From positions 290,001-354,000 of the forward strand of contig JAIGNY010002015.1 of assembly GCA_020152595.1 (NCBI GenBank): 64,000 nucleotides of DNA, given 5' to 3'. This DNA comes from Chiridota heheva. Lineage: Eukaryota; Echinodermata; Holothuroidea; Apodida; Chiridotidae. A program made the translations under genes and the position numbers. The notes under the pieces are model-generated. The model searched no databases. It saw nothing but the letters and a program-made list of their open reading frames with translations, and was not told the DNA's origin. Shown here piece by piece: positions 1,274 through 57,785 of the stretch (position 1 is the stretch's first letter; every line of letters begins with the position of its first letter).

Positions 1274-1518
1274 ACATTTGACTTATCGAAAGAAAAAAAG
1301 CCTGAAAGTAGGCCTAAGTGAAATACAAATGCTTCACCACGGGAGTAATCACTCAATAGGCTTGAACGGGTTGCAGAACAAACTGTTGAATAAGCTGCTC
1401 AGTATTATTTTGTTTCTGAATCAAGGAGTACGTAATGATCCATTAAATAGAATGCCCTCCCGGTTGATATACTCAAGACGGTATCTTTGTCATTATTTTT
1501 CTTCACTAGATCAGAAAG

Positions 1519-6550: not shown

Positions 6551-7230
6551 ATTGGAAAGGGAGGTGAGGAGCAGCAACAACAAAAACATATTGGGTGAGG
6601 GAGGAAGCGGGGAAAAGCATTTTGGACTGGAGAGGCTGAGGGATTCCCATTTTTACGCTTACTCGCCTTCTTCTCGGGTGTAGCGTCTCACATTCACGAT
6701 GTAACTTCGAGTGAGCATGGTAATGATCAAAGAAAGCATGACGTCGTGGTGACTTAATAATGTAATATCATAATTTGGAAACAGACTATCAACAATAAGA
6801 AATCATTCAAACCGTCAATGCTCACCAAGCACAGAATGAATGGTGTCTCCATCATGTCCAACGGGAAACTAGACGAAATACATAACAATTGATGACACAA
6901 ACGTTGATATTCTTTTCACAAGACCCCCTCCATCCACACTGAGCCCTGAGAGGAAACGTGGTTGTATTAGCGGGTGTGACGCTATTTTTAAAGAAATTTT
7001 AAATATGCTAATAATCATACCTTCGTGGCATATGTTATAGTCTTAGTTTCGTAATGTTTCTCTACAGATATCCAAAGCAATTTCCAACACTTTTCTAAGA
7101 AAAATGAAAATATTCTGGTGACTCAGACTAACGCGTTATACATCGCCCTTTTCTTGAAATATTGTCATTCATAAGTTGAAATATGCTTGACGGATGCCGG
7201 TTTACAGTTTTTTAATGAAATTACTGTATT
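6551..7230. other. No gene seen
   Basis: No supported exon, RNA gene or repeat in this stretch before the minisatellite. Confidence 0.4.
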
Positions 7231-8255
7231 CAGTTCAGCCGTACTGCCCTCAGTTCAGCTGTACTGCCCTCAGCCCAGCCATACTGCTCAGTACAGCCGT
7301 ACTGCCCTCAGTCCTGCCGTACTGCCCTTAGTGCTGCCCTCAGTGCAGCCGTACTGCCCTCAGTGCAACCGTACTGCCCTCAGTGCAGCCGTACTGCCCT
7401 CAGTGCTGCCGCACTGCCCTCAGTGCAGCCGTACTGCCCTCAGTGCAGCCGTACTGCCCTCAGTACAGCCGTACTGCCCTCAGTGCAGCCGTACTGCCCT
7501 CAGTACAACCGTACTGCCCTCAGTACAGCCGTACTGCCCTCAGCGCAGCCGTACTGCCCTCAGTACAGCCGTACTGCCCTCAGTGCAACCGTACTGCCCT
7601 CAGTGTAGCCGTACTGCCCTCAGTACAACCGTACTGCCCTCAGTGCAACCGTACTGCCCTCAGTGCAGCCGTACTGCCCTCAGTGCAGTCGTACCGCCCT
7701 CAGTGCAGCCGTACTGCCCTTAGAACAGCCGCACTGTCCTCAGTACAGCCGCACTGCCCTCAGTTCAGCCGCCCTGCCCTCAGTACAGCCGCACTGCCCT
7801 CAGTACAGCCGCACTGCCCTCAGTTCCGCCGCACTGCCCTCAGTACAGCCGCACTGCCCTCAGTTCAGCCGCACTGCCCTCAGTTCAGCCGCACTGCCCT
7901 CAGTTCAGCCGCACTGCCCTCAGTACAGCCGCACTGCCCTCAGTACAGCCGCACTGCCCTCAGTACAGCCGCACTGCCCTCAGTACAGCCGCACTGCCCT
8001 CAGTACAGCTGCACTGCCCTCAGTGCAGCCGCACTGCCCTCAGTACAGCCGTACTGCCCTCAGTGCAGCCGTACTGCCCTCAGTGCAGCCGTACTGCCCT
8101 CAGTACAGCCGTACTGCCCTCAGTACAGCCGTACTGCCCTCAGTACAGCCGTACTGCCCTCAGTACAGCCGTACTGCCCTCAGTACAGCCGTACTGCCCT
8201 CAGTACAGCCGTATTGCCCTCAGTACAGCCGTATTGCCCTCAGACAGCCCTCAGT
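7231..8255. repeat. 20-bp minisatellite, about 51 units
   Basis: Head-to-tail units of CAGTACAGCCGTACTGCCCT with point variants (TAC/TGC/TTC in the first half, GTACTG/GCACTG in the second). The unit holds an inverted pair CAGTAC-AGCC-GTACTG that can form a 6-bp hairpin. Units at about 7721-8040 mostly carry GCACTG and the flanking blocks mostly GTACTG, so variants are zoned. Three 20-bp units equal 20 codons and no frame meets a stop; the long reading frames here follow from unit length and are not evidence of a protein. Confidence 0.97.
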
Positions 8256-22271: not shown

Positions 22272-23414
22272 TTATGAGTCTTTGATATCAAAGGAATAAG
22301 TGCCCTCATCGGTCTTTTCATCAATTTAAAAAGTTTTTTGGTGTGAAGCATGATTTGCGAAACCAAGTTCTAAGGAATCAGTTGCTATAGTACCCAACAA
22401 ATGGGGAAAACAGTTTGGGGTCTGTGTGGTGTTATTCACTGTTTTGAGTGAGCAGACAAGTAAGGTAACCTATCACAATTGTAGGAAATATTGTCAATGG
22501 GTAATAATACAAAAAACTCATACTGAAGAATTTTGATTGAGGTGCAGCTTCCAATGTTATCTCAGTGACTACAGTGAACACTGTTTGTACAGGGTCAATG
22601 TCGGATATTGTGGTGTAGTTAGGTATTGGACAAGCCGTTAATGGAGGTCTTGCGTGTGGTGCTTCATAAAAACCTGAGCCAATCTTTACAAGCAGCCCTA
22701 CGCCCACACCAAAAACTAATCCAAATATGTTCCAATGGAATCTACTCTTGGAAAAAACATTCCAAGATAAAACACGGCGATGGTTGGACCATCGAAAATT
22801 GAACTGTAGCTTACCACTGCTTGAAACACACCCTTAAAGGATAAAGCAAGGAGTCCAATTGATATAGCGACACCCCCTAAAGGCAAAGAAATCACTTTTA
22901 CCCAGTAGGTATAGTGGGTGTCGATCATGTCCTTCCAAATGGGTCTGTTAAAATCCTGACCTATTACCGCCGCTATTCCGTTTATAAGCGAAGACATGGA
23001 TGACAGTGATGCTGCAAATGCCCCCCGGAATCAAAAATCCAGGTACCCCTGGGATGCCGTTAAACACGTCAACAATAAAATTAGGGACCAGTTGATCAGC
23101 TCGATTTATCTTGCCACTTGTAAGTGGACCACAATACGCGTAGTACCCAAAGATGGTCATTCCCATAGCAACGGAAAGTAAATCAACAACCCAGTAGCGC
23201 ATATGCCAACCCAAGCAGCTGCTTTAGCCTGCGCTTCCGTTTTGCATGAGTTGTAGCGCTGGACAAATTGCTGTTTTGAAAAAGTCGTGCAAAAAAACAA
23301 TTGAAACCCCTACATGGGCGTAGGAGCCCAATTTGATTTTTGGGGGCTGTAACGACTTGCCCGAAAGATATAACCCCCCAATTTTCAACATGTTCAATGT
23401 ACATATCATAATAG

Positions 23415-35182: not shown

Positions 35183-36270
35183 TAAGCTTGGGCGATATAT
35201 TGATATTTCAATATTGACCCATATCGATATGGCCGATATTGATTTCCAGGTTCATATCGATATATGTATTTTATTGATATTGATATGACCCTGAAGATTG
35301 TGTCAAGGCTCAGGAGGTATGCATTTGATACAAGCACCAGGGGGTATACATGTGATGCAATCACCAGGGTGTATATATGTGATACAAGCACCAGGGGGTA
35401 TAGATGTGATACAAGCACCAGGGGGTATATATGTGATACAAGCACCAGGGGTATATATGTGATGCAATCACCAGGGGGTATATATGTGATACAAGCACCA
35501 GGGGTATACATGTGATACAAGCACCAGGGGGTATACATGTACACGTGATACAAGCACCAGGGGGTATAGATGTGATACAAGCACCAGGGGGTATACATGT
35601 GATACAAGCACCAGGGGGTATACATGTACATGTGATACAAGTACCAGGGGGTATACATGTGATACAAGCACCAGGGGGTATATATGTACATGTGATATAA
35701 GCACCAGGGGGTATACATGTGATACAAGCACCAGGGGGTATTCACATACATGTGATGCAAGCACCAGGGGTATACATGTGATACCAGCACCAGGGGGTAT
35801 ACATGTGATGCAATCACCAGGGGGTATACATGTGATACAAGCATTAGGGGGTATACACGTAATGCAACCACCAGGGGTATATATGTGATACAAGCACCAG
35901 GGGGTATACATGTGATGCAATCACCAGGGGGTATACATGTGATACAAGGGGGTATACATGTAATGCAACCACCAGGGGGTATATATGTGATACAAGCACC
36001 AGGGGGTATACATGTGATACCAGCACCAAAATGAAAAGAAAGCATGTAAACATATTTTTTAAGCATAATGGATGTTTATTTAAAGATTTTTGTTGATTTA
36101 CACCAAAAAAATTATTTAAATTTGTTTGTACTAAGATGAGATGATCTGGTACAGAACAGTAACTATAAATGAAGTATGAAGTCATATGATTTACATATTG
36201 ATATTTTGATTATATCGATATTTTTCAGGCGATATATCGATATACAGTACTATAGTGCCGCCCAAGCTTA
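35183..36270. mobile_element. 1088-bp hAT-like element carrying an internal minisatellite
   Basis: Inverted ends TAAGCTTGGGCG and CGCCCAAGCTTA. The 8-bp flanks CCGTCATA (35175-35182) and CCATCATA (36271-36278) match at 7 of 8, as expected for hAT. Both subterminal regions are rich in ATCGATAT. No transposase is present. About 700 bp of the interior is a 27-bp minisatellite. Confidence 0.82.
35330..36030. repeat. 27-bp minisatellite, about 26 units
   Basis: Units contain GTGATACAAGCACCAGGG followed by GGTATACAT. Variants are GATGCAATCACC, and units lengthened by 6 bp with an extra GTACAT or GTACAC. Because 27 is a multiple of 3, each frame encodes a 9-residue repeat (for example TPWCLYHMY on the minus strand). 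This explains the 333-codon open frame without implying a gene. Confidence 0.95.
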
Positions 36271-36862
36271 CCATCATAATTACAACCATAGAGACACTTA
36301 ATGTTGGGGTTGGTAGGAGCGTTCGTACAAAAATACCCCGGCCTAGCCTGTCTATGTTTTTAAGCCCTCAACTCCCGAGATAAATAACTTTGACATTCGA
36401 TTTTCAATAAAAAACCTACAGATGTTTGCTCCATAATGGTGAAAAACCCCAGGAAATTTGGTGCTTTATTGTCAGTATCCTTCCTTCTCATAACTGCGAT
36501 GTGTTGTGCAATTTGCATCTCATTATGCACACTATGAAATCATCGTCAAATGTCTTAAATTGGTACGATTGAGTAACTGGTTTGTCATTTCTATAAAAAA
36601 ATTGTTCATTTGGTGTTAAGGAATCAAGCCTTAGTAAAATTGTGATGTTCATATTTCACGTCACATCTGGTTGTGGATCGTTTCTAATTAAGTATGTACT
36701 GTGTGCATTGTGTTTGTGTACATTGTGGAAGTCACTTCTCTGGCGGTTATTGATTGGTTGTCAGTATTTGTGTATGACCAATCAGAAACGTTTGACAGGA
36801 TGAAGAGACAGTGGCCATCCTGTCGTCGGCGTCGGAACCCACAAATGCTTAACATGAGCTCA

Positions 36863-37175
36863 TAACTTAAGTTATGAATGGTGTACATTCATGTAGATTT
36901 GTACAAGAGTAGAGGACATTAGTACTGTTCAAATGAGCATGATTGGGGTTGTGTGTGCATACTAATTAGCTTATTTGCATAACAATGAAAATATTTGTAT
37001 CTATATATCTCTTAAATTATAGTGGGTGTAGGGAATTTGTTCACGCGAATGATCATATATACGAAGAGCATTGTATACACTTAATGGTGATGTGAAGTGT
37101 GCATATTAATTCGGTTATTTGCATAACAATAGACTTTTGTACAAAATGTTTAACATGAGCTCATTACTTAAGTTA
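36863..37175. repeat. Single unit of the about 310-bp satellite found at 48675-50170
   Basis: Contains ATAACTTAAGTTATGAATGG, GTACATTCATGTA, TTCAAATGAGCATGATTGGG, GTGTGCATACTAATTAGC, GATCATATATACGAAGAGCA and TGTGCATATTAATTCGG, in the same order as the array downstream of LYRM1. Further right, ACTTACTAACTTCACATTTC (about 37597) recurs at about 50205, so both loci share an outer boundary sequence. Confidence 0.85.
36973..36987. promoter_or_regulatory. Exact SOX-OCT composite motif (one of five in the satellite family)
   Basis: ATTTGCATAACAATG is the reverse complement of CATTGTTATGCAAAT, the canonical adjacent SOX (CATTGTT) and POU/octamer (ATGCAAAT) site. Exact copies also lie at 48717-48731, 49054-49068, 49361-49375 and 49636-49650. 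The other half of each unit holds near-matches such as ATTTGCATAACAATA. Binding is not shown by sequence alone. Confidence 0.4.
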
Positions 37176-37862
37176 TTGCCAACCATGGCCCTAAAACTCT
37201 TAACACTTTTATAATATATGCTACTTGTAATGCACTTGTCAGTGGTATGACTTACCCCTACTACCCCCGGCAATGCCAGTCAAAAGTGAGTCATTGACAT
37301 ATGAAATACTGACTCACATGTGCGTCATTGTACCAAATTGTCAATCACCAGAGTGACTCTGGGATGGGTCAATTTACTTCAGACCCATTGACTTTGTACA
37401 GAGGTGATTGAGTTGGGGTAAGTCATTTCATAAAAGATGTCAGTCACCTACATGACTGAGGGTTGCGTCAATGTACATGTTTTGTCCACCCACTTTGGTG
37501 CAATGACTCACCTTATCACACAATTGACAAGTGCATAAAAACATACTTGTCACTAATTGTAAAATGAGAAAATCAAAAATATATGGCAGGCAAGACTTAC
37601 TAACTTCACATTTCTAGTATTGTTTATGACTGTGCTGTCCCAGCCTTTAAGTTAAGTGCTTTTATTAAAGGAGAGAAGAATGGAGTAATATTAGGATAAA
37701 TATTTTGTGAGATATTGTAAATACATTTACACCAAACTCTGATACACACAACAAATATGTTATGACATTTTTCAATTTTCAGCTTGAAGTTTCTGACAAC
37801 AAGCAAAGGAGCATGTTTGGATATCAACAGGGACATTTGCATTTAAAAAAAAAAGGGGGACT

Positions 37863-40800
37863 ATGACTGGAACCAGGCAATTCAGTGCTGACAATTTATC
37901 GAACGATTCTGAGAACAGCCCAGAAATGGGAAGCAGCATCTGGCAAAATACAAGATACTCGAGAAGAAAGAGAATTTATCCAACAGGAGACTAGAACTCT
38001 GTTTAAGAAGAACATGCAACTCTCAGACCCATCAGAGATTAAAATTTGTCTGAAGGAGGCAGAAAGCAGATTTGAATTGGGTAGGTCCATGAAGATGGGT
38101 GGTTTATGGATTACAAAGTTTTCATTGTCATATCATGATTTGGGTATGTCTTACTGACAAGTGATTTGCCTCAATCCAGGGTGTAACCAGCCTCTTGCAT
38201 TGCAGTGGGGAAGCAGTTGTCAAAGAGGAAATGCTTCTGACCTAAAATAGTTTCCCAAATAAAAAAATGTATTTTTCTCAAAATTTGAATCTTTTAGCAT
38301 ATTTTGTACTGTACCTTTTATCTTATTTTGCTATTGTCCTTTTTTTTAGGGTATGGTGGGGGTACTATGACTCCAGAGGGTATTTTGATACCGAACACTT
38401 TATTTTTTGGAAGTTGTGTTTGATGGATAATTTCACCATTGGCTTCATCAGAAACTTGGGTGTATATGGAGGGAAATTTAGGGAGCACTTTAATAATGAA
38501 AAGATAGTTGGTAAATATCATATGAAGGTATATGCAGAGAGGCATGATGAGTTTTATGGAGCATCCCATCCCTCATAACAATGACTCTTAACTTGTCAAA
38601 CTGGCAGTAATATATGTTTGCAAAGTGAAGGTAAAATATGGCCCATTAAGTAAGGTAGGATGTTTGTAAGGGTGGAGAAGACAAATAATATTACCATGCA
38701 AACTGAATAAAACTCACACTTCCAAGTTACCCTTTTAGGGGATGGGGCATGTCTGAAATCTCTCCCATATGATCACTGCTTATGCTGATGTATTTTTCTT
38801 ATTATTTTCTCATCATGATGAAATATTCTGGCTATGAATCAGTCAATTGCACCCAAACTCATCATAGTTTTCATAACTCACTGATGAAGGATCCTTTAGA
38901 AGTCCAAATGAAACCTCAGCCCAACATTACATGCATGGTATGGCCCATGCAGTAACCCTATCCACAATACCTGGTTCTTCACACAGTAAGTTCCATTGTG
39001 TGCATATAGATGATTTGGAGTGTAATAACTGATGCATAAAATCACTGAACTATCTGTAGTGGGTTTCTTAAATGCTACCAGCAGAGTCTAAAAGTTATAC
39101 CTGCTGAAATGGAGGTTTTTGCAGGTGAAAAGACTGAAAATATGTAGCGAGGATTGTTTGTAATGTTGAGTAAAGGAGGCTTAATCAAAATGGAGGCTGT
39201 ATGAAAACTCACATCTGTAGACTAGAGCAATATTCTAAAAACACTTTTTTTGACTTACAAATATTGAAACCTTATGTCAAAGATTCTTAATTAAATTTTT
39301 CAAAGGACCATCATTTCACAACAGCTTCAGGACATGGGCCAATCGTGTGGCAAAACCAGCGTCATGTGATAAAAAAAAAATCCTATTAAAACAATCCCAT
39401 GAATGTTACATCGATGTATAGTGAGCTAATAGGAAAAAATTTTATTGATCTCATTTGAAAAACCTTACAGTACATCATCAAATTATGGAGGAATTATTTT
39501 TGTTACATCCTATTTTTATTTCAAAATGCAAATTTAGGTTTTGTATCAATCATATCATCTTTCTAGTAACAATTAAATCTCAATTACCTGCAAATAATAC
39601 TACTGTACATCATGGAGTGATGAAAATTTTGTAGCTTTTGGCAAGAATGAAATTTTGCTCTCTGATTATTTTCTAAAAAGGATGAGTGCCACCTTATGCA
39701 CCACTTTCATAGTTGCACATGATCAGGTTTCATTTTTGGTGAAAGCACGGCATCAAATGTCATAACTGGGTAATTTGCAGCATATGATTAGTTTACACAG
39801 ACAGCACATATGGGGCTGTGGAGAAGGGGGGGCTTACTGGACAAAATAAAAGTAACTGATAACAAAGGAACTAAAATTGGAGCTGTTCCCCAAGTCCCCC
39901 AAAAAGATTTTAATAGTGTCTTCAATATAGTTATTACCCTATTTGCACATTCACCCTCCCCCTCCCCCTCCCTCACACTCACAAATTCGCTGCCTTTACT
40001 GATTTCAAGTTGTACTGTAGGTGTACAGATTTTCCCCACAATGTCCCAGTGCCCCTCTCAAAAAGAACCATAGTGACTAGTTGTTGGTCATTTCTTTATT
40101 AACATATATCCAATGTTGGTATGTAAATTTAGATTAAAAAAGTTGATTCAAAATTTGAGATCTCATGCTGCATTAGTGTATACACAACCATTCAAGTGGG
40201 CTTGTGAACAGAATATGCTTGAATCTTTCTTCCAAATTATTATTTTTACAAAGTTATGATGGATAGTCCACCATGGTCAGAAAGATCTTCTTGCTATTGT
40301 GGTGTACTCATGTCATGACTCTCACATTCCTTTACTGAAATTTTCATCGTGAGAATAAATGCAGGGGATCACACCTTGAAGATTTGAGAATATTTAGACT
40401 TTGATAACTTTTTAGAAAGGGTTTAAAATTTTGGGTAAACAAGACTGAATTTTGGATATATATGTACTTCTTCTAGTTTCTGAATTATGGGTAATCAAAG
40501 TACCAAAATTTATTCTGACCAACATTTAGACAATCCAGGCCACTTATTCCAAACTGGTGGCCCGTTCTTTGATGCCCAATTTAAGTTGGGCCTGAGGTAC
40601 AGTGGCCCAGTGGTCAAGAGGCTATTTTCCTATGCGAATGATTCTGGGTTCGATTCCCATTGCGAGGGCTGCATTGTGTCCTTGAGCAAACACTTAACTC
40701 TATTCGCTCCAAGTCCACTGTAAATGAGTACCAGCACTGCTTGGGAGTTGACCTGCGATGGGCGTCCTGTTCAGGGGGAGTCATGTGCTCTGATCTTCCA

Positions 40801-43800
40801 ACTCCAAGAAAAACGGGAAAATAAAGCACCCGCCTGATGGGCCTGCAATTAAGGCTCAAGTATTGGTTTTTATAGCCCCCCTTCTTTTTCTTTGATACCC
40901 AATTCAATTTAGGCCTATACAAAATCCTGGTAACAGTTATTGAAAGCAAGTCAATGAGCTCAAAAGTATTACAAAGGTCATTGGGTCGATTGCTGAAATT
41001 TTCCTAACCTGACTTGTCGCTCGACCGTGATAAATTATTCTCATATAGCTTGCAGTAGTACATGAATGTTGAAAATGAAACAATAGATCCTTGCACCTAA
41101 ATCAAACAGTGAAAGGAAATGTAGTATTGAATAACAAATAAGCTCCGTTCAGTGGCCTTTGTTGAAATGAAACAAGGAAAAATTATGGTGCCTAGGATTT
41201 TGAATTTTCCTTATACAGTACAATGTATGTGAAATAAATGTGTTAGGAAATTTGGCCTTTGATTTGGTATTTTTTTGTCATTTTATGGATTTTTTTTTTG
41301 TGGGAATTTCCCCTCCCCACCCCCTTCATTTATTTTTTAGCGGGAATTTGATAATATGTGCAGGAATCCCGCACTTCAGTGTGAACACTGCAAGGCTCAA
41401 AGTGCTGAACCTTTTGTTCAATATCTTAAAAACTGAAAACATTCTCAAGTTCCCTGGGATAGTCTTCAACCAAGTGGCCATCACAATGCAGTATATTCGT
41501 TAAAGGAGACATAAAGTCTGATAATCATTATTTAATATGGTAGAGGATTAACATCTTAACCAACTGCCAAAAACAGCAAGTTGAAATCTTATTCCTATTC
41601 AAGTTATTCATGTTTGAAATTGACACATATGTGACACATATTGACACACATCCCCATATGGGGCTGCCATTTTGTTCAATTCTGTATTTAAATATTGTGC
41701 ATGATGACATAATTTCCCCAATAGGGACATAAGGGTTGTAATGTATTTCTTTATAAATGTGATTAAAGTTTTTATTCCAAAATGATGTGACACAAAGTTT
41801 TAACAGCATGTTTTGATAATTTCATGTGTACATTAAAAAAACTCCTTGACCCTTTACAAAAGAAAAACCATTTTTCATCAGCTAGAAAACTTGAGGTAGA
41901 TTATAAAAAATACAAAGCATTCCAACATCCTGCTGGGCTGATGACATCATGTTCTTCATGTTTTGAAATCAAAATGGCAGCCCCATGGTACTATTAATTA
42001 GTAGCTTAAAGTTTTTAATAATTACAAAGAATGTGTTAGATTACTTCGGTAGGTTTAAAACTTGTCAGTACATTTGTTATTTTTAATTCTATTATATGAA
42101 ATAAGGATTATGTCAGACTTTGTGTCTCCTTTAAACACATCAAGTATCTCATTTTAAATTTTTGGTATGACCCGGCTGGGAAAGGAACCCATGAACTAAC
42201 GGCTGAAAGCTGCAGGGGATCTACCAAGAGCTAGTTAATCTGTAGTAGTATTACCAAGATATATGCGCTGTAATAACTATAACAATTTAAGATTTTATAT
42301 CTTTATTTCTTAGAAAAGTTATACAAACTTTAGAAGAGAACATGGCACCAACCTCTTCCACCACATATAATCTCCTCCTCCCCTTCTACACCTAACCTTA
42401 CACACCCCTTTCTTTTCACCTAAATTTTTCTCCCACATTTAGCTTTTCCTCTTTATCTCCCTTACAAACCTTCCATCTCCTCACTATCCTTACTCTTACA
42501 CCATTATTTATTAGTACCCTCTTGGCACATTTGACTCTGACTGTTGCGGTGCCGTTAAACATCAACAAACCAAACAAACTAAATGTTAAAATGGGGAATT
42601 TACAAGATTTTGGGTCACTTGAAATGTAAAATATAGAGAGGAATCAATGCAATATGTAGTGCATTTGCATCTTTCTAAACTAGGAAGATGTTAACAGCAT
42701 GACAAGAATATGTAATGCAAATTCTAAAATGATGTTTTTGGGAACAAAATGTAAATTCAAGTTGTATTGGAAAATAGATTGAGCAAATTACATTTGAACA
42801 TTGTTGAACAAATGCCAAAACAAAATTAAGCGCATCATATTTCAAATCTCTTCAAGAACAATCCCTCCTCCAACATCACCTTCCTCCTCATTAGCAAGTT
42901 ATCCCACCTGATCTAATCCTTACCCACACTCCCCTCCCCTTTTTCTACCCTACCATCTTATCCCCCTTTTCCTTTTATACCTTTTTACACCTTTGTTATT
43001 CATCCTATTGTCCCTCCTTCCTATCCCCTCTCCCTCTCCCATTCATCTCCAACCTACTCTAGCACCTTAAATTCCTAACACCCTCTTCCTCCAACATTAT
43101 CAACTTCCTCCGCAACAACAACCTTTTCCACCATATCTAATCTACCTTTCTCCTCCCTTCTACACCTTACCTCACTTACCCCTTTCTTTTCCTCTTATTT
43201 TTTCCTCTCCCAAATTTACCCTATTTTCCCCCTTTTCTTCCTCTCAATCCTTCATCTCCTCTCTGCCCTAACTCTTACACCCTAATTTTTTAACCCCCTA
43301 TTGGCATATTTGACTGTGACTGTCACGGTGCCGTTAAACTTCAACAAACCAAACCTATTGGCACATTTGACTGTGACTGTCACGGTTCCGGCAAACTTCA
43401 ACAAACCAAACCAATGTATCATACAGTTGAGTGTAGCCTATAGGCTATAGCTAGATTATTGACAGATGGAAACAAATAGTCTTGTCTAATCTGGCTTTGG
43501 AGAACATATAGCCTATTATAATGTATAATGATAATAATATCATAATAGATGCCCTCCCTATTATAATGTATAATGATAATATATGCCCTCCCTATTAGGT
43601 ATAATGATAATAATATCATGATATATGCCCTCCCTATTATAATGTATAATGATCATAATATAATATATGCCCTCCCTATTATAATGTATAATATCATAAT
43701 ATATGCCCTCCTATTATAATGATAATATAATATATGCCCTCCCTATAATGTATAATGATAGTAATATAATATATGCCCTCCTATTATAATGTATAATGAT

Positions 43801-46800
43801 CATATAATATATGCCTTCTCTATTATAATGTATATAATGTATATATTATAATATAATATGATATATTTACCCTCCCTATTATGTATAATGATAATAATAT
43901 TATAATGCCCTCCCTATTATAATGTAAATGATATGCCCTCCCTAATATAATTTAATGCCCTCCCTAATATATGATAATATATATATGCCCTCCCTATTAT
44001 GATAATATCATAATATATGCCCTCTATAATAATGTATAATATTATAGTATATGCCCTCCCTATTATAATGTATAATGATGATATGATTTATGCCCACCCT
44101 ATTTATAATGATAAAATGATCACATTATAATGTAAATAATATATGCCCTCCCTAATATAATGTATAATATCATAATATATGCCCTCCCTATTATAATGAT
44201 AATATAATATATGCCCTCCCTATAATGTATAATGATAATAATATAATATATGCCCTCCCTATTATGATGTGTAATGATCATAATATAATATATGCCCTCT
44301 CTATAATAATGTATAATATTATAGTATATGCCCTCCTATTATAATGTATAATGATGATATGATTTATGCCCTCCCTATTATGTATAATGATAATAATATC
44401 ATAATATATGCCCTCCCTATTATAATGTAAAATGAGCACAATATAATATATGCTCTCCCTAATATAATGTATAATATCATAATATATGCCCTCCCTAATA
44501 TAATGATAATATAATATATGCCCTCCCTATTAGGTATAATGATAATAATATATGCCTCCCTATTATAATGTATAATGATCAAAATATAATATATGCCCTC
44601 CCTATTATAATGTATAATATATAATATATGCCCTCCCTATTATAATGGATAATAATCATAATATAATATATGCCCTCCTATTATAATGTATAATATCATA
44701 ATATATGCCCACCCTATTTTAATGATAATAATAACATAATATATGCCCTCTCTATTATGTATAATGATAATATATGCCCTCCCTATTATGTATAATTATA
44801 ATATATGCCCTTCCTATTATGTATAATGATAATGTATGCCCTCCCTTTTATAATGTATAATGATGAATAATAACATAATATATGCCCTCCCTATTATGAA
44901 CGTCTTTAATGGACATGTACAGTAGCAGTGTCAATAATTTCTAGTAGACTTTCAGTTTCGATCCTGACCAGAGTCAAGACTAATAAAAGATTTTCAACAT
45001 CAATGTTCCTTTTTCAAGATGTCCCCTAGGCCTAAAATGCCACTTGCAGATATTACACCATGCACTGGGATATGCATAAATTACCATTAAATACATGACT
45101 TTTGTATTGTTTACTATTCACGTGTAATGTTTGGATCAATAAGCTCATAATTTGACTCATGAATGGTAATTACAGTATGTTAACCCTAACCCAGCACTTT
45201 TTTGAAAACGTGCTTGGGAGGCGGGGTCAAAGTTAGGGCAGCCACGATAATATCGCCGTGTGGTAGAGTAAGGGAAGCACAGGCTGATTATTGAATAGTC
45301 CTCTTGTCTTCCTAGCAGCAGAGTTGGGCTCGTTCCGCTTAAGTGGGCCACCCACAGGGACCATACTGCATATATTCTTGAGTTGGCACACTTGTCGCGG
45401 GCTGATTAACCATTACTCTACTAGCACTTTTTTGAACATGCGCTTGGAGGCAGGCTTAAAGATGGGGCACCCAAAACGGCGATAATATAACCGCGTGGTA
45501 GAGTAAAGGTGAAGCACAGGCTGATTATTGAATGGTCTTCTGTTTTCCGAGCAGCAGAGTCGGGATCATTTTGCTTCAGTGACCCAATGGGCTGCCCTCA
45601 TGCTGCATATATTTTTTAGTTGGCACACTTGTCGCAGGCTGATTAAACCTTACTCTACCTGCACTTTTTTGAAAATGCGCTTGGGAGGCGGGATCAAAGA
45701 TGGGGCACCTAAAACAGCGATAATATTACCACGTGGTAGAGTAAGGGTTAAGCACAGGCTGATTATTGAAGGGTCCTCTGTCTTCCAAGCAGACATATTA
45801 GGACAGATACACTGTACGTGATGTGCCCTTCAAGATTTTCTTGACCCTGAAAAGTTGGCTACCATAGCTCCAAAAGAACATATCATAGATTGTGTAAGGT
45901 TTATAGGATGAACTAAAAACAATTAAATAAAGAACGCAAAAGTGAAATTCTACCTTCCTCTTTTTGTATTTTCAGCTCTGCACTACAAAAGTCCATATCC
46001 TCGTGCGGTAAGTCAATTGAATGAATATGCATACGTGATAATGACAACTTCTGTACTTTTTTAATGTTTTATGGATGAATAAAGGCAACATTTATTACCT
46101 TAATTGCCTTCAAATTCTATAAAACACCATCATGGCAAACATTTCATTAAAACCGGTTAAACATTGACCAGCGGCTTTAAATCTCAGGCTTAATTTGCAT
46201 ATTTTATGCAAATTTTGTGTTGTACAGTATTACACGGCAACCTTGGTATTTTCTTTTGTGAATCCTTTGTTTTATAAATTATAATTCTTTGAATTGGTGC
46301 AGCAAGTTCTGACCAAAGGTTTTTTGAGTCTTTATTTTCCATGCCTCCAATAAAATTCTATCAGAATAGACTTTCCTATTATTTTCTGTGACCAAGATTA
46401 AGAAATTAATTTAAAGAATTATGTAAAGATTTTGAGGTGTCCACTCAGTTTAACACTACAAAAGTGATCAAAAGCATGGTTTGGAACTGACGCTATTTTA
46501 CTATTCCGAGAATAGTAAAATCTCAAATGGAATACCAAGTTATTCTTTTTCAGTATTCTGCTAAAATAGTGCACAAAAATCTGTTGCAATTGCCTTCTAT
46601 CATGGCTGCCAGATAGTTGTGACAGTATACGGCCAATTTTTGGGTGTTTTATGGCCAAATTTTCTCAATCTGCACAATTGTTGTGATAGTATATAGGTAT
46701 CCGTCAAGTTTTGGGTGTTTCACGGCCAAATTTTTTTGATCTGCATAATGTGTCTTGGCCCAGTAAACTTATATAAAAAATAATAATCGTCATATGTTGC

Positions 46801-48005
46801 GTGTTAAAATTGGCACAACACAGCATATGAAAAAAACTTAATACATAAAAGTATATAATGCTGCACGTGTAGTGTAATATGATTAAATGAATCGGGACCG
46901 ATTCTTTTCATATCTTTTTTTTCTCCTCAAAATTATGCTTTTACAGCCGGTAAATCAGTGTTCCCTTTACTTTTGAGTGGTTGGTAACATCCCTCTGTTT
47001 TGGTTGGTTCCATGTGTGGTCACTAAGAAAAAAATATTAACGAAGCAGAAGGCACTGCTATGGTGGCCATTTTGAAATGGTTGTGCTATAAATAAAGTTA
47101 AGCACATAATGTCAATGTTTTTTCCGTCGTATATGATTACACTCTTTTATCTGTTATTTATCGTTGGTTTTCAGAATGAAAATGAAAGGAATAGTGAAAC
47201 ATGAGATTGACTAGTAGATGTAAAAATCTAGTGGCAATTATTTTAAATTTCGACCCCTGAATAGTGATCAGCCATCATTCAAAAGTTAAAAGTTTTTTTT
47301 TTAACCAATATAGAAATTGCTACATGTCCATATAGACCAAAGAGAGTCACATGATATCCAAGTACTTTACTTTACACTTAGATGATAAGTTCAGGGGTCA
47401 AGCAAATTTATCTTGAACAAGGATTTTAAAAGAAACAAAATAGTGAAGAAACCATTCAAAAATTTTATTCTGTGAGGGAGCTATCGAAGTTCAAAGTTTG
47501 GTATAATTTGTGTAGAAATGACTTGAATCAGACTAGTTGTGCTGTCATAACCTCAGATTCCTCTAAGTCTTTATGTATTCTATCATATTTTGTCCTGCGA
47601 TTTGAGGCGTAAACACCATGGGATATGTCAAAAAAGTAGTAAAACTGAATCTAGTAAGGGTATTTATAATGTACCACCTGAAGAAAGTTCGAGGAAAATT
47701 AATTTAAATAGTAAAAAATTTAAATAATCTTTCTTTGAGTATATTTGAATGCTTTCTTCACCATTTTGTTTCTTTTGAAGTCCTCTTTCATATAAGATGG
47801 ACATACTTGACCCCTGAACTTATCCTTTCACTTGTGAGACTTTACATATTTGCAAGTTGATCTTATTTTTATTGATTTCATTTTCCTGCAGGTGAATATT
47901 CCACCAATGGGTCTCCCTCCGACCAAGAGCCAGGGTAAGAAAGCGCAAGACAGGCTACGAAAACAAGCCAAACCCATTTATCTACACTCCCAAGATGACA
48001 CGTGA
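37863..48005 (+). CDS. LYRM1: LYR motif-containing protein 1 (LYRM1), three coding exons, apparent +1 frameshift after codon 6
   Basis: LYR-motif protein; the family binds mitochondrial acyl carrier protein through a three-helix LYR domain. Coding exons: 37863-38080 (donor G|GTAGGT), 45976-46007 (acceptor TTCAG, donor GTAAGT) and 47892-48005 (acceptor TGCAG, stop TGA). Phases agree at both junctions. Readable blocks are LTIYRTILRTAQKWEAASG (LYR degenerate as IYR), FIQQETRTLFKKNMQLSDP, ALHYKSPYPRA, IPPMGLPPTK and KPIYLHSQDDT, matching vertebrate LYRM1 to its end; about 120 aa against 122 in human. The ATG at 37863 gives MTGTRQ, like the vertebrate N-terminus, but four bases (TTCA) instead of three separate it from GTGCTGACA, so the frame is broken as written. 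A one-base sequence error, a real mutation, or a start on an unseen upstream exon could explain this. Introns hold a SINE, foldback elements and satellites. Confidence 0.9.
38081..40566. other. LYRM1 intron 1, left part: nothing recognised
   Basis: A 103-codon frame at 38267-38578 (+) is hydrophobic at its start but unrecognised and lies in the intron. A short C-rich patch (CCCTCCCCCTCCCCCTCCC) is at about 39954. No repeats of note. Confidence 0.45.
40594..40889 (+). mobile_element. tRNA-derived SINE with long target duplication, in LYRM1 intron 1
   Basis: A box TGGCCCAGTGG (40603-40613) and B box GGTTCGATTCC (40647-40657), then CTGCATTGTGTCCTTGAGCA, GAGTACCAGCACTGCTTGGG and GGCGTCCTGTTCAGGGGGAG. 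Imperfect 27-bp direct repeats flank it (40567-40593 and 40890-40916, both beginning CTTTGAT and ending GGCCT), which fixes the borders. It is the best preserved copy of this family in the window. Confidence 0.9.
41504..42130. mobile_element. 627-bp TTAA-flanked foldback element (family B), in LYRM1 intron 1
   Basis: TTAA at 41500-41503 and 42131-42134. Ends are AGGAGACATAAAGTCTGA and TCAGACTTTGTGTCTCCT. The arms are inverted: GGGGCTGCCATTTTG on the left is mirrored by CAAAATGGCAGCCCC on the right. No coding sequence. Uninterrupted relative of the 33294-34295 copy. Confidence 0.88.
42330..43415. repeat. Pyrimidine-rich repeats ending in a GCCGTTAAAC-AACAAACCAAAC tail
   Basis: Two related C/T-rich blocks (about 42330-42585 and 43080-43415) share CTTCTACACCT, CCTTTCTTTTC and CTTACACC, then TTGGCA(C/T)ATTTGACT, CGGTGCCGTTAAAC and TCAACAAACCAAAC. 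The last tail is duplicated at 43356-43413. The tail resembles LINE/SINE 3' ends, which is inference. A third C/T-rich block lies between them. Confidence 0.6.
43510..44897. repeat. AT-rich minisatellite with CCCTCCCT core, about 1.4 kb, in LYRM1 intron 1
   Basis: More than 30 units of variable length (about 25-50 bp) with core ATATGCCCTCCCTATTATAA followed by TGTATAATGATAATAATAT. Unit length varies by gain and loss of TAATA pieces. Confidence 0.92.
45188..45790. repeat. Tandem repeat of about 230-237 bp, 2.6 copies, in LYRM1 intron 1
   Basis: CACTTTTTTGAA recurs at 45195, 45425 and about 45662. Each copy carries a GCTTGG(G)AGGC block, GGGGCACC-type sequence, TGGTAGAGTAA, GAAGCACAGGCTGATTATTG and AGTTGGCACACTTGTCGC. 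The array ends about 185 bp before LYRM1 exon 2. Confidence 0.88.
46615..46750. repeat. Two-copy direct repeat of about 71 bp in LYRM1 intron 2
   Basis: TTTTGGGTGTTTTATGGCCA and TTTTGGGTGTTTCACGGCCA, each preceded by TTGTGA(C/T)AGTATA and followed by AAATTTT....ATCTGCA, give two adjacent copies. Confidence 0.7.
47382..47826. mobile_element. 445-bp family A-like foldback element in LYRM1 intron 2
   Basis: GATAAGTTCAGGGGTCAAG at the left and CTTGACCCCTGAACTTATC at the right are perfect 19-bp inverted repeats. AAACAAAATAGTGAAGAA is mirrored by TTCTTCACCATTTTGTTT. The interior (CATGGGATATGTCA) matches the copies at 16401 and 61852. The flanks TTAG and TTCA look like decayed TTAA. It ends 65 bp before LYRM1 exon 3. 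Confidence 0.8.
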
Positions 48006-48049
48006 CACCTACAATAACTGAAATGAGATAGAAATTTTGTTACAATTTG

Positions 48050-48180
48050 GCAACATTTTCTTCAAGTTGTAAGAAATTTCCCAGAATTTAAAGGAAATTT
48101 CCCCCAAATGAAGGAAATGTCCAGAAAGTTGAAGGAGATTTCCTGAAAATTATTAAGTTTGGATTTACTAAAAATTGAAG
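48050..48180. repeat. Degenerate GAAGGAAATTTCC short tandem motif
   Basis: AAATTTCCCAGAATTTAAAG, GAAATTTCCCCCAAATGAAG, GAAATGTCCAGAAAGTTGAA and GGAGATTTCCTGAAAATTAT repeat at about 20-22 bp. Similar to 26860-27075 and 59020-59335. It begins 45 bp after the LYRM1 stop, so it is probably in the 3' UTR. Confidence 0.6.
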
Positions 48181-48674
48181 GAGAATTTGCGATTAGCAGC
48201 AATCTTTGGTGGAACTTAATTAATCAGTACAAAGTTTATGTAATTTCCTGTTTCTTAACAGCAATTATTGGAGAATTTTCGCACCTTGCGCTGTTTGATG
48301 TGAAATTACATGTAGCAAAGGTTATAATCTCACTTAATATTGACATTAAAATTTTAAGTCAATTAGCAACAATAATTTGTTTTGTATTAATTTCAAAGAA
48401 CACATTCTGATTCGAATGTTGATGCATGTTGAGATTCATTGGCTACACGTGAGAGATAAAGTTAACATTTCTAAGGCAAGTTGAGAAAGTTTGGTATACT
48501 GTGATTGTAGTCAGAAACATTACAAAAGGGCAAATCAGTTTATTTTCACCATAGGTCGTTCTATTTACATATTTCAATTTTGGGCCCCCCACTTTTTTGG
48601 GCAAACCCAGTTTACTTTCCAGCAAAATGATGACAAAAAATATCCAAAAGGCAGAAACTGAAAATCCCAAATAT

Positions 48675-50170
48675 CAAATGAGCATGATTGGAGGGTTGTG
48701 TGTGCATACTTTGCTTATTTGCATAACAATGAAAATATTTGTCAGGTTCAAGTTTTGGTTAAAGTTTTTGGTTAAACTTTTCATAACTTATGAATGGTGT
48801 ACATTCATGTGACTTGGCATAGGGGTAGAGGACATGGGTACTGTTCAAATGAGCATGATTTGGGGGTTGTGTGTGCATACTAATTAGCTTATTTCCATTA
48901 CAATGAAAAGTTTTGTCAGGTTGAAGTTTTGGTTAATGTTTTTGGTAAGTTTTCATAACTTAAGTTATTAATGGTGTACATTCATGTAACATGGCGTAGG
49001 GGTACTGTTCAAGTGAACATGATTAGGGGTTGTGTGTGCATACTAATTAGCTAATTTGCATAACAATGAAAATATTTGTATCAATGATATCGTCTGAATT
49101 AAATTAGATATGGGGATTTTGTTTGCACAAATGATCATATATATAAAGAGCATTGTCTACACTTAATGTTGAGGTGAAGTGTGCATATCAATTAGTTTAT
49201 TGGCATAACAATAGACTTTCGTACAAAATGTTTAAATTTATTAGTGCATAACGTAAGTTATGAAAGATGTACATTAATGTAACTTGGCACAGGGGTAGAC
49301 AACATGGGCACTGTTCAAATAAGCATGATTGGGGGGTTGTGTGTGCATACTAATTAGCTTATTTGCATAACAATGAAAATACTTGTATCTATGGTATCTC
49401 TTAAATTAAAGTGTGAGTGGAGATTTTGTTTACACATGACCATATATGTGAAGACCATTGTCTACACTTAATGGTGAGGTTTAATGTGCATGTTAATAAG
49501 GTTATTTGCACAACAATAGACTTGCATAAAATATTTAACCTTAGAAAATAACTTGTTACTTTTTACAGGGGTAGAGGACATGGCTACTGTTCAAATGAGC
49601 ATGATTTGGGATTGTGTATGCATACTGATTAACTTATTTGCATAACAATGAAAATGTTTGTATCTATGATATCTCTTAAATTAAAGTGGGAGTGTGGAAT
49701 TTGTTTTACACAAATGATCATATATGTGAAGAGCATTGTCTACACTCGATGGTGAGGTGTAGTGTGCATATTAAGTAGGTTATTTGCATAATTATAGACT
49801 TGCATACAAAATATTTAACCTGAGATAATAACTTGCTATTTGGTTCAGTGGTAGAGCGCATTGGTACTGTTCAGTTGAGCATGGTTGGGGGGATTGTGTG
49901 TGAATACTAATAAGCCTATATGCATAGTAATTAAAATATTTGTATATGTGGTATTTCTTGAATTAAAGTTGTTCAGTTGAGCATGGTTGGGGGGATTGTG
50001 TGTGAATACTAATAAGCCTATATGCATAGTAATTAAAATATTTGTATATGTGGTATTTCTTGAATTAAAGTTTGTATGCATGATTTTGCCCAAACAAATG
50101 ATCGTACAGTATATGTGAAGAGCTTTGTTCACACTTGATGGTGAGGTATAGTGTGTATTTGCTGCAATAT
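48675..50170. repeat. Satellite array of about 310-bp units, downstream of LYRM1
   Basis: About five units, some partial, built of two related halves of about 155 bp. Recurrent blocks are GAGCATGATTGGGG, TTGTGTGTGCATACTAATTA, TTATTTGCATAACAATGAAA, AAATGATCATATAT, AGAGCATTGTCTACACTTAA and TGCATAACAATAGAC. The region 49869-50072 is a perfect 102-bp tandem duplication. One more unit of the family is upstream of LYRM1 at 36863-37175. Confidence 0.9.
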
Positions 50171-50404
50171 GTTTGATCTGAGATCAAAAATATATGGCTT
50201 ATGACTTACTAACTTCACATTTCTAGTTTTGTTAAGATATTGATATTTCTAACATGAATAGCATTCAAAATGTTTTTTTTCCCATAAATAAAGAAGCAAA
50301 TAAAAGTTTCCTCCTTCTAAAGAATGTTAAATTAGGGGTTTGGGGAAATATAAATAATAAGCAGAATGTGGGTGTGTGTGATGACATGATGATAAAGTCG
50401 CTAA

Positions 50405-50720
50405 AGGAATTAAGATGAGGTCATGTGGGACAGGGTGGAATTGTATGTAGGGCAGGGTGCGGTGGGATGTTGGTCAGGACATATTGGCATGTCAGACAGG
50501 GTGGATTGACATGTAGAACAGGATGGGTTGGCATGTGGAACAGGATGGGTTGGCATGTGGAATAGGATGGGTTGGTATGTGGAACAGGGCGGAATGGCAT
50601 GTGGTGGGATGTCATCTGGATTTCAGTTGTGATGGCATGTGGATCATAGTAGTGGTGGAATGCCATACAGTATCTGGTTTTCAGCTGCGATTGCATGGAG
50701 TATAGACATGGGATGACATT
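50405..50720. repeat. Short minisatellite, about 20-22-bp units (GGCATGTGGAACAGGATGGG)
   Basis: Consecutive units GGCATGTGGAACAGGATGGG and GGCATGTGGAATAGGATGGG with more diverged copies on each side. The motif resembles the 57.1-57.8 kb minisatellite. Open frames through it are repeat by-products. Confidence 0.85.
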
Positions 50721-52484
50721 TGGGACAGGTTGGATGGAATGTGGGACAGTCTGAAATATGCATTATTTGTGGTGAGGGGATTTGTATTGTTTCCAATGTC
50801 TAGTTTGTCATACGTTAAGCAATATTGTTTCGCATAATTTTGCTTTAATGTTGTTGTACATTTTTCATGCTGCTTGACTTTGCTTGACACATATTTTTTG
50901 AATTGGAAATTTGATTACAATCCAGGATGTTGTTTTGGGAATGCGTAGGGGCTGGGGGAGGGTACAGGCTGGAAAGAGGGTTGAATGACATTCTTTTATT
51001 GACATTGACAAGTCAATGCCTCGCCTTTCTTTGTTATTCAATTGATAGAACTAAATGAGGTGTTGTAGTTATAAAGACTGCTAGGTTTTGTATGTGCTCT
51101 GATTTACTGGGTGAGGTAAACTTGACTTTGTCTTAAAATATCCCGGAAAACTCAAAAGATATTTTGAAGCTTGTAGTGCAATGAAAATGTAAGTGCATCT
51201 TTCAAAGCTCAAGTAATTTGATATAATCTGCCCCTGCTACCCTTGTTCTGTATACACTTCCCTCTATTAGGCCAATCTCTATACTAGCTTAGAATAGTTG
51301 AGCATACTGTCCTTCTGACAGTACTAGTTTGGATATTAGTGACTAATATATAGTAGCTGTGGTCTGGGGGCTTGAATTGAATAGGCTTATACCCCCAACC
51401 TTAATATTTTTTCTGGAAAATATAAGTTTGGACCCACAAAATAGTAAATGTTGATATGAAAAGCTTGTAAAGGAAAAAAGGCCATCAACATGATTATACC
51501 GTAATTGGTTAAAGATAGTTGGTTAATCATAACTAATGTTATCCCGTGTCCCCCTCCCCTCCCCTCCCCAGTATCCCCACCCCTACCAGCAATCGTGAAC
51601 AATGATAACTTCTATTGCAGTACTTGTCTTTTTCACTGTAAGTCGGTTTTGTAGACATCTCTTATTCTTCCAAGAAGGCTATATTGCAAAATCTTTTGTA
51701 CAATTTTCCACTGTGACCGGAAAAAATATCTTGAATTTTGTAATAAAATTATAATTTCACTGCAATGTATTAATAATAATTATTCAGAAAAGTGAGGATC
51801 TGACATCACTCTTCTGCACTGAACTTTCTGCATCACTTATTTTCATTCAAACTTTGTTACAACTGTAAGATATCACAATTTTTCTGTTTTATTGTTAAAA
51901 ATCGCATATATTTGCATATCATTTGTCACATTGTAACTGATGTAGTGAAGTAGTAAATCTTCTACCATGAATGAGATTGTCAAATTATGGTAATTTAAAG
52001 TATGATACCTACAGTGGGTGAGGGCTTGCCAATTTTGTCTTATTTGCCCTTTATGAGCTTGTATATGTTTTATTACTCAAAACTTAAAATTGTATAAATT
52101 TGCATCTCATTAGTAAATTTCCATTCTTTTCAGAATTGTGCAAGTTTTCTTTTTGGGGACAACCACATTTTTCATCATCTCCAACAACCAAATTTCATGT
52201 AGATCTAACAAAACTCAAATTTTAAAGGCTTCTTTGCATCTTGGCCCATAAGTAGTTTAATCACAGTTCTGGGTATATATTTGCCCTCTGTCATACAAAA
52301 TAAACTTTTCTGACTAACGAATTAATCCATTAAGTTTAGCTCTTTTGAAGCAGAATCTCATTTCCGTAGCTTAAGAGTTAATAAGTTTCTTGTCAAAGCA
52401 ACCATATACATCACATTTGAAAATATATACTTTCAGTTTTTGTTTTTATTCTGTTCTGTTGCACAAGAACTAAGGTGTTGATAA
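50721..52484. other. No gene seen
   Basis: AT-rich sequence with a C-rich run near 51550-51570; no supported exon. Confidence 0.4.
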
Positions 52485-57099: not shown

Positions 57100-57785
57100 A
57101 GGATATGACTGCATATGGACATAGGAAGGGATGCCATGTGGGACATGAATGGGGGCCATGCGGTGCATGATTTAATATATACCATGTGGTATACACCAAG
57201 GGCTATATCAGGCATAATCTATTGACTCCACTTTTTTTTTCTTATTCAACAATTCGTTTGCATATAAGTTATTATATGAACTGACACTTTCATACATAGT
57301 ATGCTCAATCAGGGACTGATAGCTGGGATGAGACTTCTTAAGGAGCCTATTGGATGTCATGTGGGACATGGGGTGGGATGCCATGTGAAACAGGGTGGAA
57401 TGCCATGTAGGATATATGGTGAAATGCCGTGCAGGACATAGGGTGGAATGCCATGGGATGGGGTGTCATGTGGGACATGGGATGTCACTTGAGACATGGG
57501 TGGGATGCCATGTGGGACATGGGGTGGGATGCCATGTGGGACATGGGGTAGGATGCCATGTGGGACATACATGTAGGATGGGATTAATGTGGGATATAGG
57601 GTGTGATGCCATGTGGGTCATAGGGTGGGATGCCATATGAGACATACTGTATGGTGAAATGCCATGTGGGAGATATGGTAGAATGCCATGTGGGAGATAT
57701 GGTAGAATGCCATGTGGGACATGGGATGGGATGCCATGTAGGACATGGGATACCATGTGGGACTTAGTGTGAGATGCCATTTTTA
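57100..57785. repeat. Minisatellite, about 20-26-bp units (GGGATGCCATGTGGGACATG)
   Basis: Dense array from about 57350 to 57785 with units such as GGGATGCCATGTGGGACATG, AATGCCATGTGGGAGATATG and variants; scattered older units from 57120. Open frames (for example HVPHGIPP repeats on the minus strand) follow from the repeat. Confidence 0.9.

Follow-up and report, generated by a model that had tools for sequence, protein, structure and literature searches.

The repeats discussed here lie in a 64,000-nucleotide stretch of Chiridota heheva DNA (contig JAIGNY010002015.1, positions 290,001 to 354,000), referred to below as the window, which holds two copies of a repeat family carrying the 15-nucleotide motif ATTTGCATAACAATG (the 15-mer). 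The repeats are very probably the central tandem repeats of non-autonomous Helentron-type (HINE) rolling-circle transposons, with a 34-bp core that would serve the element in a sequence-specific way. The same repeats are found in two element types, which differ in their ends. The original prediction had described a satellite family bearing an exact, pluripotency-type SOX-POU composite site. The match to the composite site stands, the arrays turn out instead to be short central repeats of Helentron-type elements, and the pluripotency label is doubtful.

The repeat unit, its core and its abundance

The repeat unit is a dimer of about 300 bp composed of two half-units, A and B, which occurs as one dimer at 36843-37176 and as an array at 48674-50182. 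Alignment of the two halves is possible in just one place, a 34-bp core, GTGTGCATAYTAATTAGSTTATTTGCATAACAAT, where their consensus sequences agree at 32 of 34 bases. In each of four dimers the A-versus-B score of the core was reached by none of 300 shuffles, and the 5′ and 3′ flanks aligned at the level of chance. The core includes 14 of the 15 bases of the 15-mer. A profile of it detects nine strong and two decayed copies in the window, and no other site exceeds the highest scores of six shuffles. Another copy, the twelfth, lies at 48697; it has a 3-bp deletion, falls below the profile threshold and was seen through its exact 15-mer. In the two cores folded, no stem-loop was found beyond those of shuffled sequences. 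The dimer and the cores are as follows.

36843-37176, + strand: one type-1 A+B dimer with a period of about 301 bp and an edge repeat of 31/33
36953-36986, + strand: core, A half, covering all but one base of the exact 15-mer at 36973-36987
37097-37130, + strand: core, B half, last base of the 15-mer A
48697-48730, + strand: core with the 3-bp deletion, exact 15-mer at 48717, located by eye
48871-48904, + strand: A core with two changes, 15-mer at 48891 with two mismatches
49034-49067, + strand: A core, exact 15-mer at 49054
49179-49212, + strand: B core, 15-mer at 49199 with two mismatches
49341-49374, + strand: A core, exact 15-mer at 49361
49484-49517, + strand: B core, 15-mer at 49504 with two mismatches
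49616-49649, + strand: A core, exact 15-mer at 49636
49762-49795, + strand: B core, 15-mer at 49782 with three mismatches
49868-50072, + strand: decayed A unit in two identical 102-bp tandem copies, motif lost

The identical 102-bp pair at 49868-50072 is a recent local duplication.

All five exact copies of the 15-mer that had been predicted (36973, 48717, 49054, 49361 and 49636) were recovered, all on the + strand, and the near-matches said to sit in the other half-units are real, with one mismatch at 37117, two at 48891, 49199 and 49504, and three at 49782. The motif has been lost from two more A-type copies, at about 49920 and 50022. When up to three mismatches are allowed, the window contains 20 matches, compared with a mean of 8.03 and a maximum of 14 in 100 dinucleotide shuffles. 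Among 20,000 dinucleotide shuffles of one 301-bp unit the exact 15-mer never appeared, and matches with at most one and at most two mismatches appeared 12 and 145 times, respectively. As the window copies are related by descent, they count as about one independent event. The same units were also said to contain the perfect palindrome ATAACTTAAGTTAT and TAATTAG. The palindrome is exact at 36862 and 48955 (chance mean 0.04) but has one mismatch at 37163 and 49248, so its exact form is missing from some units; TAATTAG is present in four A cores but is not enriched across the whole window (18 versus a shuffle mean of 20.9).

The reverse complement of the 15-mer, CATTGTTATGCAAAT, is the top SoxOct motif in chromatin immunoprecipitation data for Oct4 and Sox2 (PMC4576985), and is also given as the canonical SoxOct motif elsewhere (PMC8257633). 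As a string, the window 15-mer is thus an exact canonical SoxOct motif, and its description as a textbook SOX and POU composite is borne out (PMC4576985; PMC8257633).

A genome-wide count of the 15-mer against a control had been proposed, and the genome (1,100,099,931 bases in 3,744 contigs) was searched with reversed patterns as controls. The exact 15-mer occurs 4,788 times (2,421 + 2,367) and its reversed pattern 45 times (26 + 19), an approximately 100-fold excess that confirms dispersal of the motif, and the core with up to three mismatches occurs 13,739 times (6,830 + 6,909) with none for its control. The 15-mer is abundant because it is part of the core, which is present twice per dimer and is copied with the element. 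Chance as the source of the excess is rejected both by these counts and by the 20,000 shuffled units. Forty distinct 15-mer loci were sampled among the matches listed, all from the first contigs, and 39 of them belong to one repeat family; the remaining locus (L031) lies outside it as a background copy. The sampled loci contain 180 A and 129 B half-unit matches. Orientation within arrays is constant, with 227 core matches on the + strand and none on the − strand in 42 oriented stretches, and none of these 227 is an orphan core above 22 bits outside A or B units. The arrays are short, having one to eight A half-units in the stretches examined. No relatives were found in viral, prokaryote and phage collections by exact-pattern search or blastn, there were no Rfam matches at the gathering threshold, and full-text literature searches with the core and end strings returned nothing relevant, repeat databases not having been searched.

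Two types of Helentron-like element

Head-to-tail tandem units with a higher-order A+B period could be explained by a classical heterochromatic satellite with scattered fragments, but the arrays are short and constant in orientation, and many of them are bounded by conserved transposon-like ends. Long homogeneous arrays lacking such ends were not found in the assembled loci sampled, and a classical satellite is extremely improbable.

The layout of the HINE, the non-autonomous Helentrons, has been described in flies, mites and the Pacific oyster (PMC4067079; PMC7492417), and its features are found here: a 5′ subterminal inverted repeat (subTIR) with an adjacent complementary inverted repeat, a left-flank microsatellite followed by central satellite-like repeats, and a matching 3′ subTIR. 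In both types the start mostly follows a T-run. Type 1 has TTGTCTCGCCTGCGAAGCAGGATGAAGAGACA plus a GTC microsatellite at its start and GGCAGGCGAGACTTACTAACTTCACATTTCTAG at its end; type 2 has AGCTCGACTATTCGAAGAATAGTAGAGCT plus a GGCGTC microsatellite at its start and GAATAGTCGAGCATACTGTCCTTCCGACAGTTCTAG at its end. The left flank LF1 consists of TTGTCTCGCCTGC through GAGACA plus the GTC microsatellite, and the right flank RF1 contains GCAGGCGAGAC. LF2 extends from AGCTCGACTATTC to GAATAGTAGAGCT plus the GGCGTC microsatellite, and RF2 contains GAATAGTCGAGC, the palindrome ACTGTC..GACAGT (in full ACTGTC-CTTCC-GACAGT at the type-2 3′ end) and CTAG. The subTIRs pair, in that GAATAGTCGAGC is the reverse complement of GCTCGACTATTC and GCAGGCGAGAC that of GTCTCGCCTGC. 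Left flanks lie upstream and right flanks downstream of the repeats, and by eye the GTC or GGCGTC runs precede the first repeat. A run of at least four T, directly or one base before the flank, was likewise seen by eye in 17 of 19 LF2 and five of six clear LF1 copies.

Fixed thresholds were applied to 39 genome loci together with the two window copies, 41 in all, several of the 3-kb stretches stopping short of the right flank. The left flank was LF2 in 19, LF1 in seven and neither in 15, and the right flank was RF2 in 14, RF1 in eight and neither in 19. One of the LF1 calls (L035) is probably a chance match, the flank being LF2-like by eye. Genome-wide, with up to three mismatches, there are 1,515 copies of the type-2 right end and 353 of the type-1 right end, with none for either control. 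CTAG with T as the next base is found at four of five type-1 right ends (the window copy, win_u1, and L001, L002 and L003, not L005), and the sequences downstream of them are unrelated. The right part of type 2 comprises a segment resembling RF1, an extension, and a minisatellite whose unit is 22 bp long. This arrangement, in which the type-1 terminus region is followed by a continuation, was observed at 50183-50226 and in L004, L006, L008, L009, L014, L019, L022 and L025, which would fit either a bypass of the type-1 terminator or an exchange of modules between elements.

The CTAG followed by T in four of the five type-1 right ends is what a canonical Helitron, rather than a Helentron-type element, would leave. 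The conserved left ends, with an approximate 5′ border, show a T-run and then GTCTC or AGCTC instead of the TC start of a Helitron, the left junctions are T-rich, and the combination of subTIR, inverted repeat and microsatellite is that of HINE (PMC4067079), making a canonical Helitron very unlikely.

The copy at 36.8-37.6 kb is a 5′-truncated type-1 element with an insertion resembling a miniature inverted-repeat transposable element (MITE), and the copy at 48.7-51.3 kb is a type-2 element without its left flank.

36795-36848, + strand: LF1 of the type-1 element, 5′ truncated, with the inverted-repeat region GATGAAGAGACAG and the microsatellite GTCGTCGGCGTCGG
37230-37539, strand not assigned: MITE-like insertion between the dimer and the right flank, inverted ends ATGCACTTGTCA, 26-nt arms, 81% complementary
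37549-37617, + strand: RF1 with the inverted subTIR GGCAGGCAAGAC (37585-37596), ending in CTAG with T as the next base (genome C2005:327585-327617)
48674-50182, + strand: central tandem array of the type-2 element, A and A+B units, left flank missing
50183-50226, + strand: RF1-like segment in the type-2 right part, ending in CTAG and continuing into sequence common to other type-2 loci
50227-51291, + strand: type-2 right part, including a minisatellite at 50422-50604
51292-51327, + strand: type-2 right end, with the subTIR GAATAGTTGAGC, the palindrome ACTGTC-CTTCT-GACAGT and CTAG

A complete left flank is absent from both window copies. The LF1 of the window resembles the left flanks of L001, L002, L003, L005, L044 and L048, which carry a TTGTCTCGCCTGCGAAGC-like subTIR; no such subTIR was found at 36795-36848. 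Nor do the window copies have a left flank in common (nine of 100 shuffles do as well), because they represent different element types and are truncated. The MITE-like insertion of about 305 bp inside the type-1 element has no second copy in the window by blastn.

Conservation of the core and its candidate partners

Whether the 15-mer is more conserved than the rest of the unit had been posed as a test. A sample of 39 loci was found by the 97 bp between the cores and not by the core itself; these are the non-window members of the 40 candidates scored out of 543, and they over-represent relatives of the window copy because they are the best matches to it. In this sample the fraction of copies with an intact 15-mer is 0.474 for A (76 copies), which ranks fourth of 195 windows (median 0.238), and 0.411 for B (56 copies), which ranks 20th of 195. 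The excess over base expectation is +0.072 for the octamer and +0.027 for ACAAT in A, +0.041 and +0.042 in B, and +0.042 (A) and +0.021 (B) for the 5′ part of the core, compared with −0.005 and −0.043 for the two flanks. Divergence from the majority sequence has a median of 10.1% and a range of 2.8 to 22.4% (64 copies).

In a first sample the loci had been found through the A 15-mer, which biases the A result there; that result was corrected for ascertainment. Among the 129 B copies of these loci, TTATTTGCATAACAA is intact more often than any other of the 108 windows (0.58 versus a median of 0.19), and the B 15-mer ranks fifth (0.383), with eight of 99 windows doing at least as well after base adjustment. 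The evidence from the window alone is ambiguous. In the four window dimers, deviating cells number 0 of 60 in the A 15-mer, 4 of 60 in the B 15-mer and 105 of 1,088 in the rest, and when the 15-mer pair is shifted round the unit it is matched or bettered at 7 of 317 positions. Window means for A are matched by 6 of 303 windows (four dimers), 13 of 101 (six A copies) or 37 of 101 (all eight), and those for B by 106 of 303 (dimers) or 30 of 121 (B halves). What holds, then, is a modest excess that is strongest at the A octamer; it belongs to the whole 34-bp core rather than to the 15-mer, it is not centred on the SOX half, the effect is modest after base adjustment, and the window-only results are mixed.

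Element-level constraint on the core is likely. The core may be held by a sequence-specific role in the life cycle of the element itself, the simplest being that of a docking site for a host DNA-binding protein. Since the octamer is kept better than any other part of A, a host POU-type protein would be the best candidate for the docking partner, and binding of SOX or POU proteins, alone or together, is a candidate property of the core.

Several results weigh against the reading of the repeats as parts of a HINE with a constrained core. No autonomous partner has been linked to the elements: there are 11 matches to PF14214 (Helitron_like_N), whose ends have not been compared, and ten of them contain internal stops, one having none. 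A left flank went unrecognised in 15 and a right flank in 19 of the 41 loci, many of the stretches being short; folding of a single type-1 right end revealed no palindrome, and CTTG replaces CTAG in some type-2 ends. As for the core, after base adjustment 9 of 195 windows do at least as well as the A 15-mer and 40 of 195 as the B 15-mer in the 39-locus sample, the ascertainment-corrected A value in the 15-mer-found sample, 0.236 (ranking 70th of 166) or 0.295, is near the median of about 0.22, and when the 34-bp core pair is shifted in the window, 31 of 317 positions match or better it.

It is quite plausible, at slightly less than an even chance, that the SoxOct match merely hitch-hikes: the match would be fortuitous in a transposon repeat rich in A and T, and the core would be kept for another reason such as replication, bending or source-copy homogeneity without any role for SOX or POU proteins. 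In keeping with this, the SOX half in A barely exceeds base expectation, the excess covers the whole core, no more than 44 of 75 ungapped A copies and 27 of 52 ungapped B copies retain the two half-sites intact, and the composite site has no established user in an animal lacking class V POU proteins (PMC9240670). A coincidence sits less easily with the absence of the exact 15-mer from all 20,000 shuffled units and with the octamer as the best kept part of A, as expected of a POU site.

The arrays might alternatively function in embryos by binding SOX and POU proteins, either as dispersed enhancers or as a sponge. The string is canonical, it exists in thousands of copies, POU domains are encoded in the genome, and the window copies flank an LYR-domain gene on both sides. 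However, one half-site has been lost in a large part of the copies, POU domains were found at four loci only (at least six matches, read as four loci, in a six-frame genome search), and POU factors outside class V are described as preferring homodimers (PMC9240670). We consider such a function unlikely. The pluripotency reading is weakened by the same four POU loci and by the description of class V POU proteins as confined to jawed vertebrates, although the same review leaves room for older SOX-POU partnerships (PMC9240670). The immunoglobulin C1-set domain has one marginal match in the genome, and the gene content suggests that the host is an invertebrate. A COX1 search intended to place the host gave no match. 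One POU-domain match (G000:C2343:380717-380926) lies within an open frame reported as 2,165 codons, which is long for a POU gene.

The reading of the repeats as HINE elements with a docking core can be taken further. POU and SoxB host proteins of the germ line or early embryo might bind the core and favour transposition, which would have seeded thousands of SOX-POU sites in an animal without Oct4, some of them now beside genes; we regard this extension as something of a long shot.

Genomic surroundings and known systems

Between the two window copies lies a gene with an exon at 37867-38157 that matches the LYR family; its last exon is presumably at about 47893-48005, as placed by resemblance to LYRM1. 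Within 37780-38180, the likely start codon and the body of the LYR-domain exon are in different frames, either a true change or an assembly error. A 27-bp minisatellite, CAGGGGGTATACATGTGATACAAGCAC, with about 26 copies, lies upstream of this gene at 35311-36028. The window also contains an SLC5-type transporter gene at 1510-4357 (+ strand; Pfam SSF), whose best solved relative is sodium-coupled monocarboxylate transporter 1 (moderate identity by eye), and a second SLC5-type copy at 22432-23223 (− strand) with its pieces in different frames by eye. Another minisatellite, at 7230-8249, has about 51 copies of a 20-bp unit with the internal palindrome CAGTACAGCCGTACTG. The minisatellites at 50422-50604 and 57352-57751 are related (about 66% alike over 50422-50667 and 57382-57637), and the core profile found no core beside the latter.

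Transposon-borne Oct4/Sox2 sites are reportedly known in mammals from the work of Kunarso in 2010, with binding measured. There, as here, a mobile element spreads the canonical SoxOct string, whereas in the present, apparently non-vertebrate host binding would be a prediction from the motif. The CENP-B box of alpha satellite is a short conserved box common to the diverged monomers of a higher-order repeat; unlike it, the core described here is transposon-borne and only a predicted site.

The closest likeness is to Cg_HINE of the Pacific oyster, in which a subTIR, an inverted repeat and a microsatellite make up the left flank and the centre consists of satellite-like repeats, followed by a right flank of about 60 bp with subTIR and palindrome (the latter seen in type 2 here); its target is T-rich, as the left junctions suggest here too, its array orientation is constant, and in its cluster CL4 short motifs are common to otherwise dissimilar monomers (PMC7492417). 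The likeness is one of description, and the A+B dimer of about 300 bp with a 34-bp core per half is particular to the present elements; moreover, repeat cluster and flank are consistently paired in Cg_HINE, whereas here the same repeats occur with two types of ends (PMC7492417). The DINE-1 and HINE elements of flies and mites are similar in their subTIRs, their 3′ palindrome (type 2 here), an apparent T-rich insertion and non-coding character and in having central repeats in some copies; in the present elements the 3′ subTIR is separated from the end by about 24 bp in type 2 and by 21 bp in type 1, as against 38-60 bp in the mite families, and the folded type-1 end shows no palindrome (PMC4067079).

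About 99% of the exact copies of the canonical motif in this genome exceed what the reversed control yields (4,788 versus 45), a warning that transposons can dominate motif counts in genomes of this sort. To our knowledge, why HINE elements carry central tandem repeats is an open question. A core that is common to two otherwise unalignable half-units and to two element types, and that is somewhat better preserved than its surroundings, offers a concrete, testable candidate for the purpose of these repeats.

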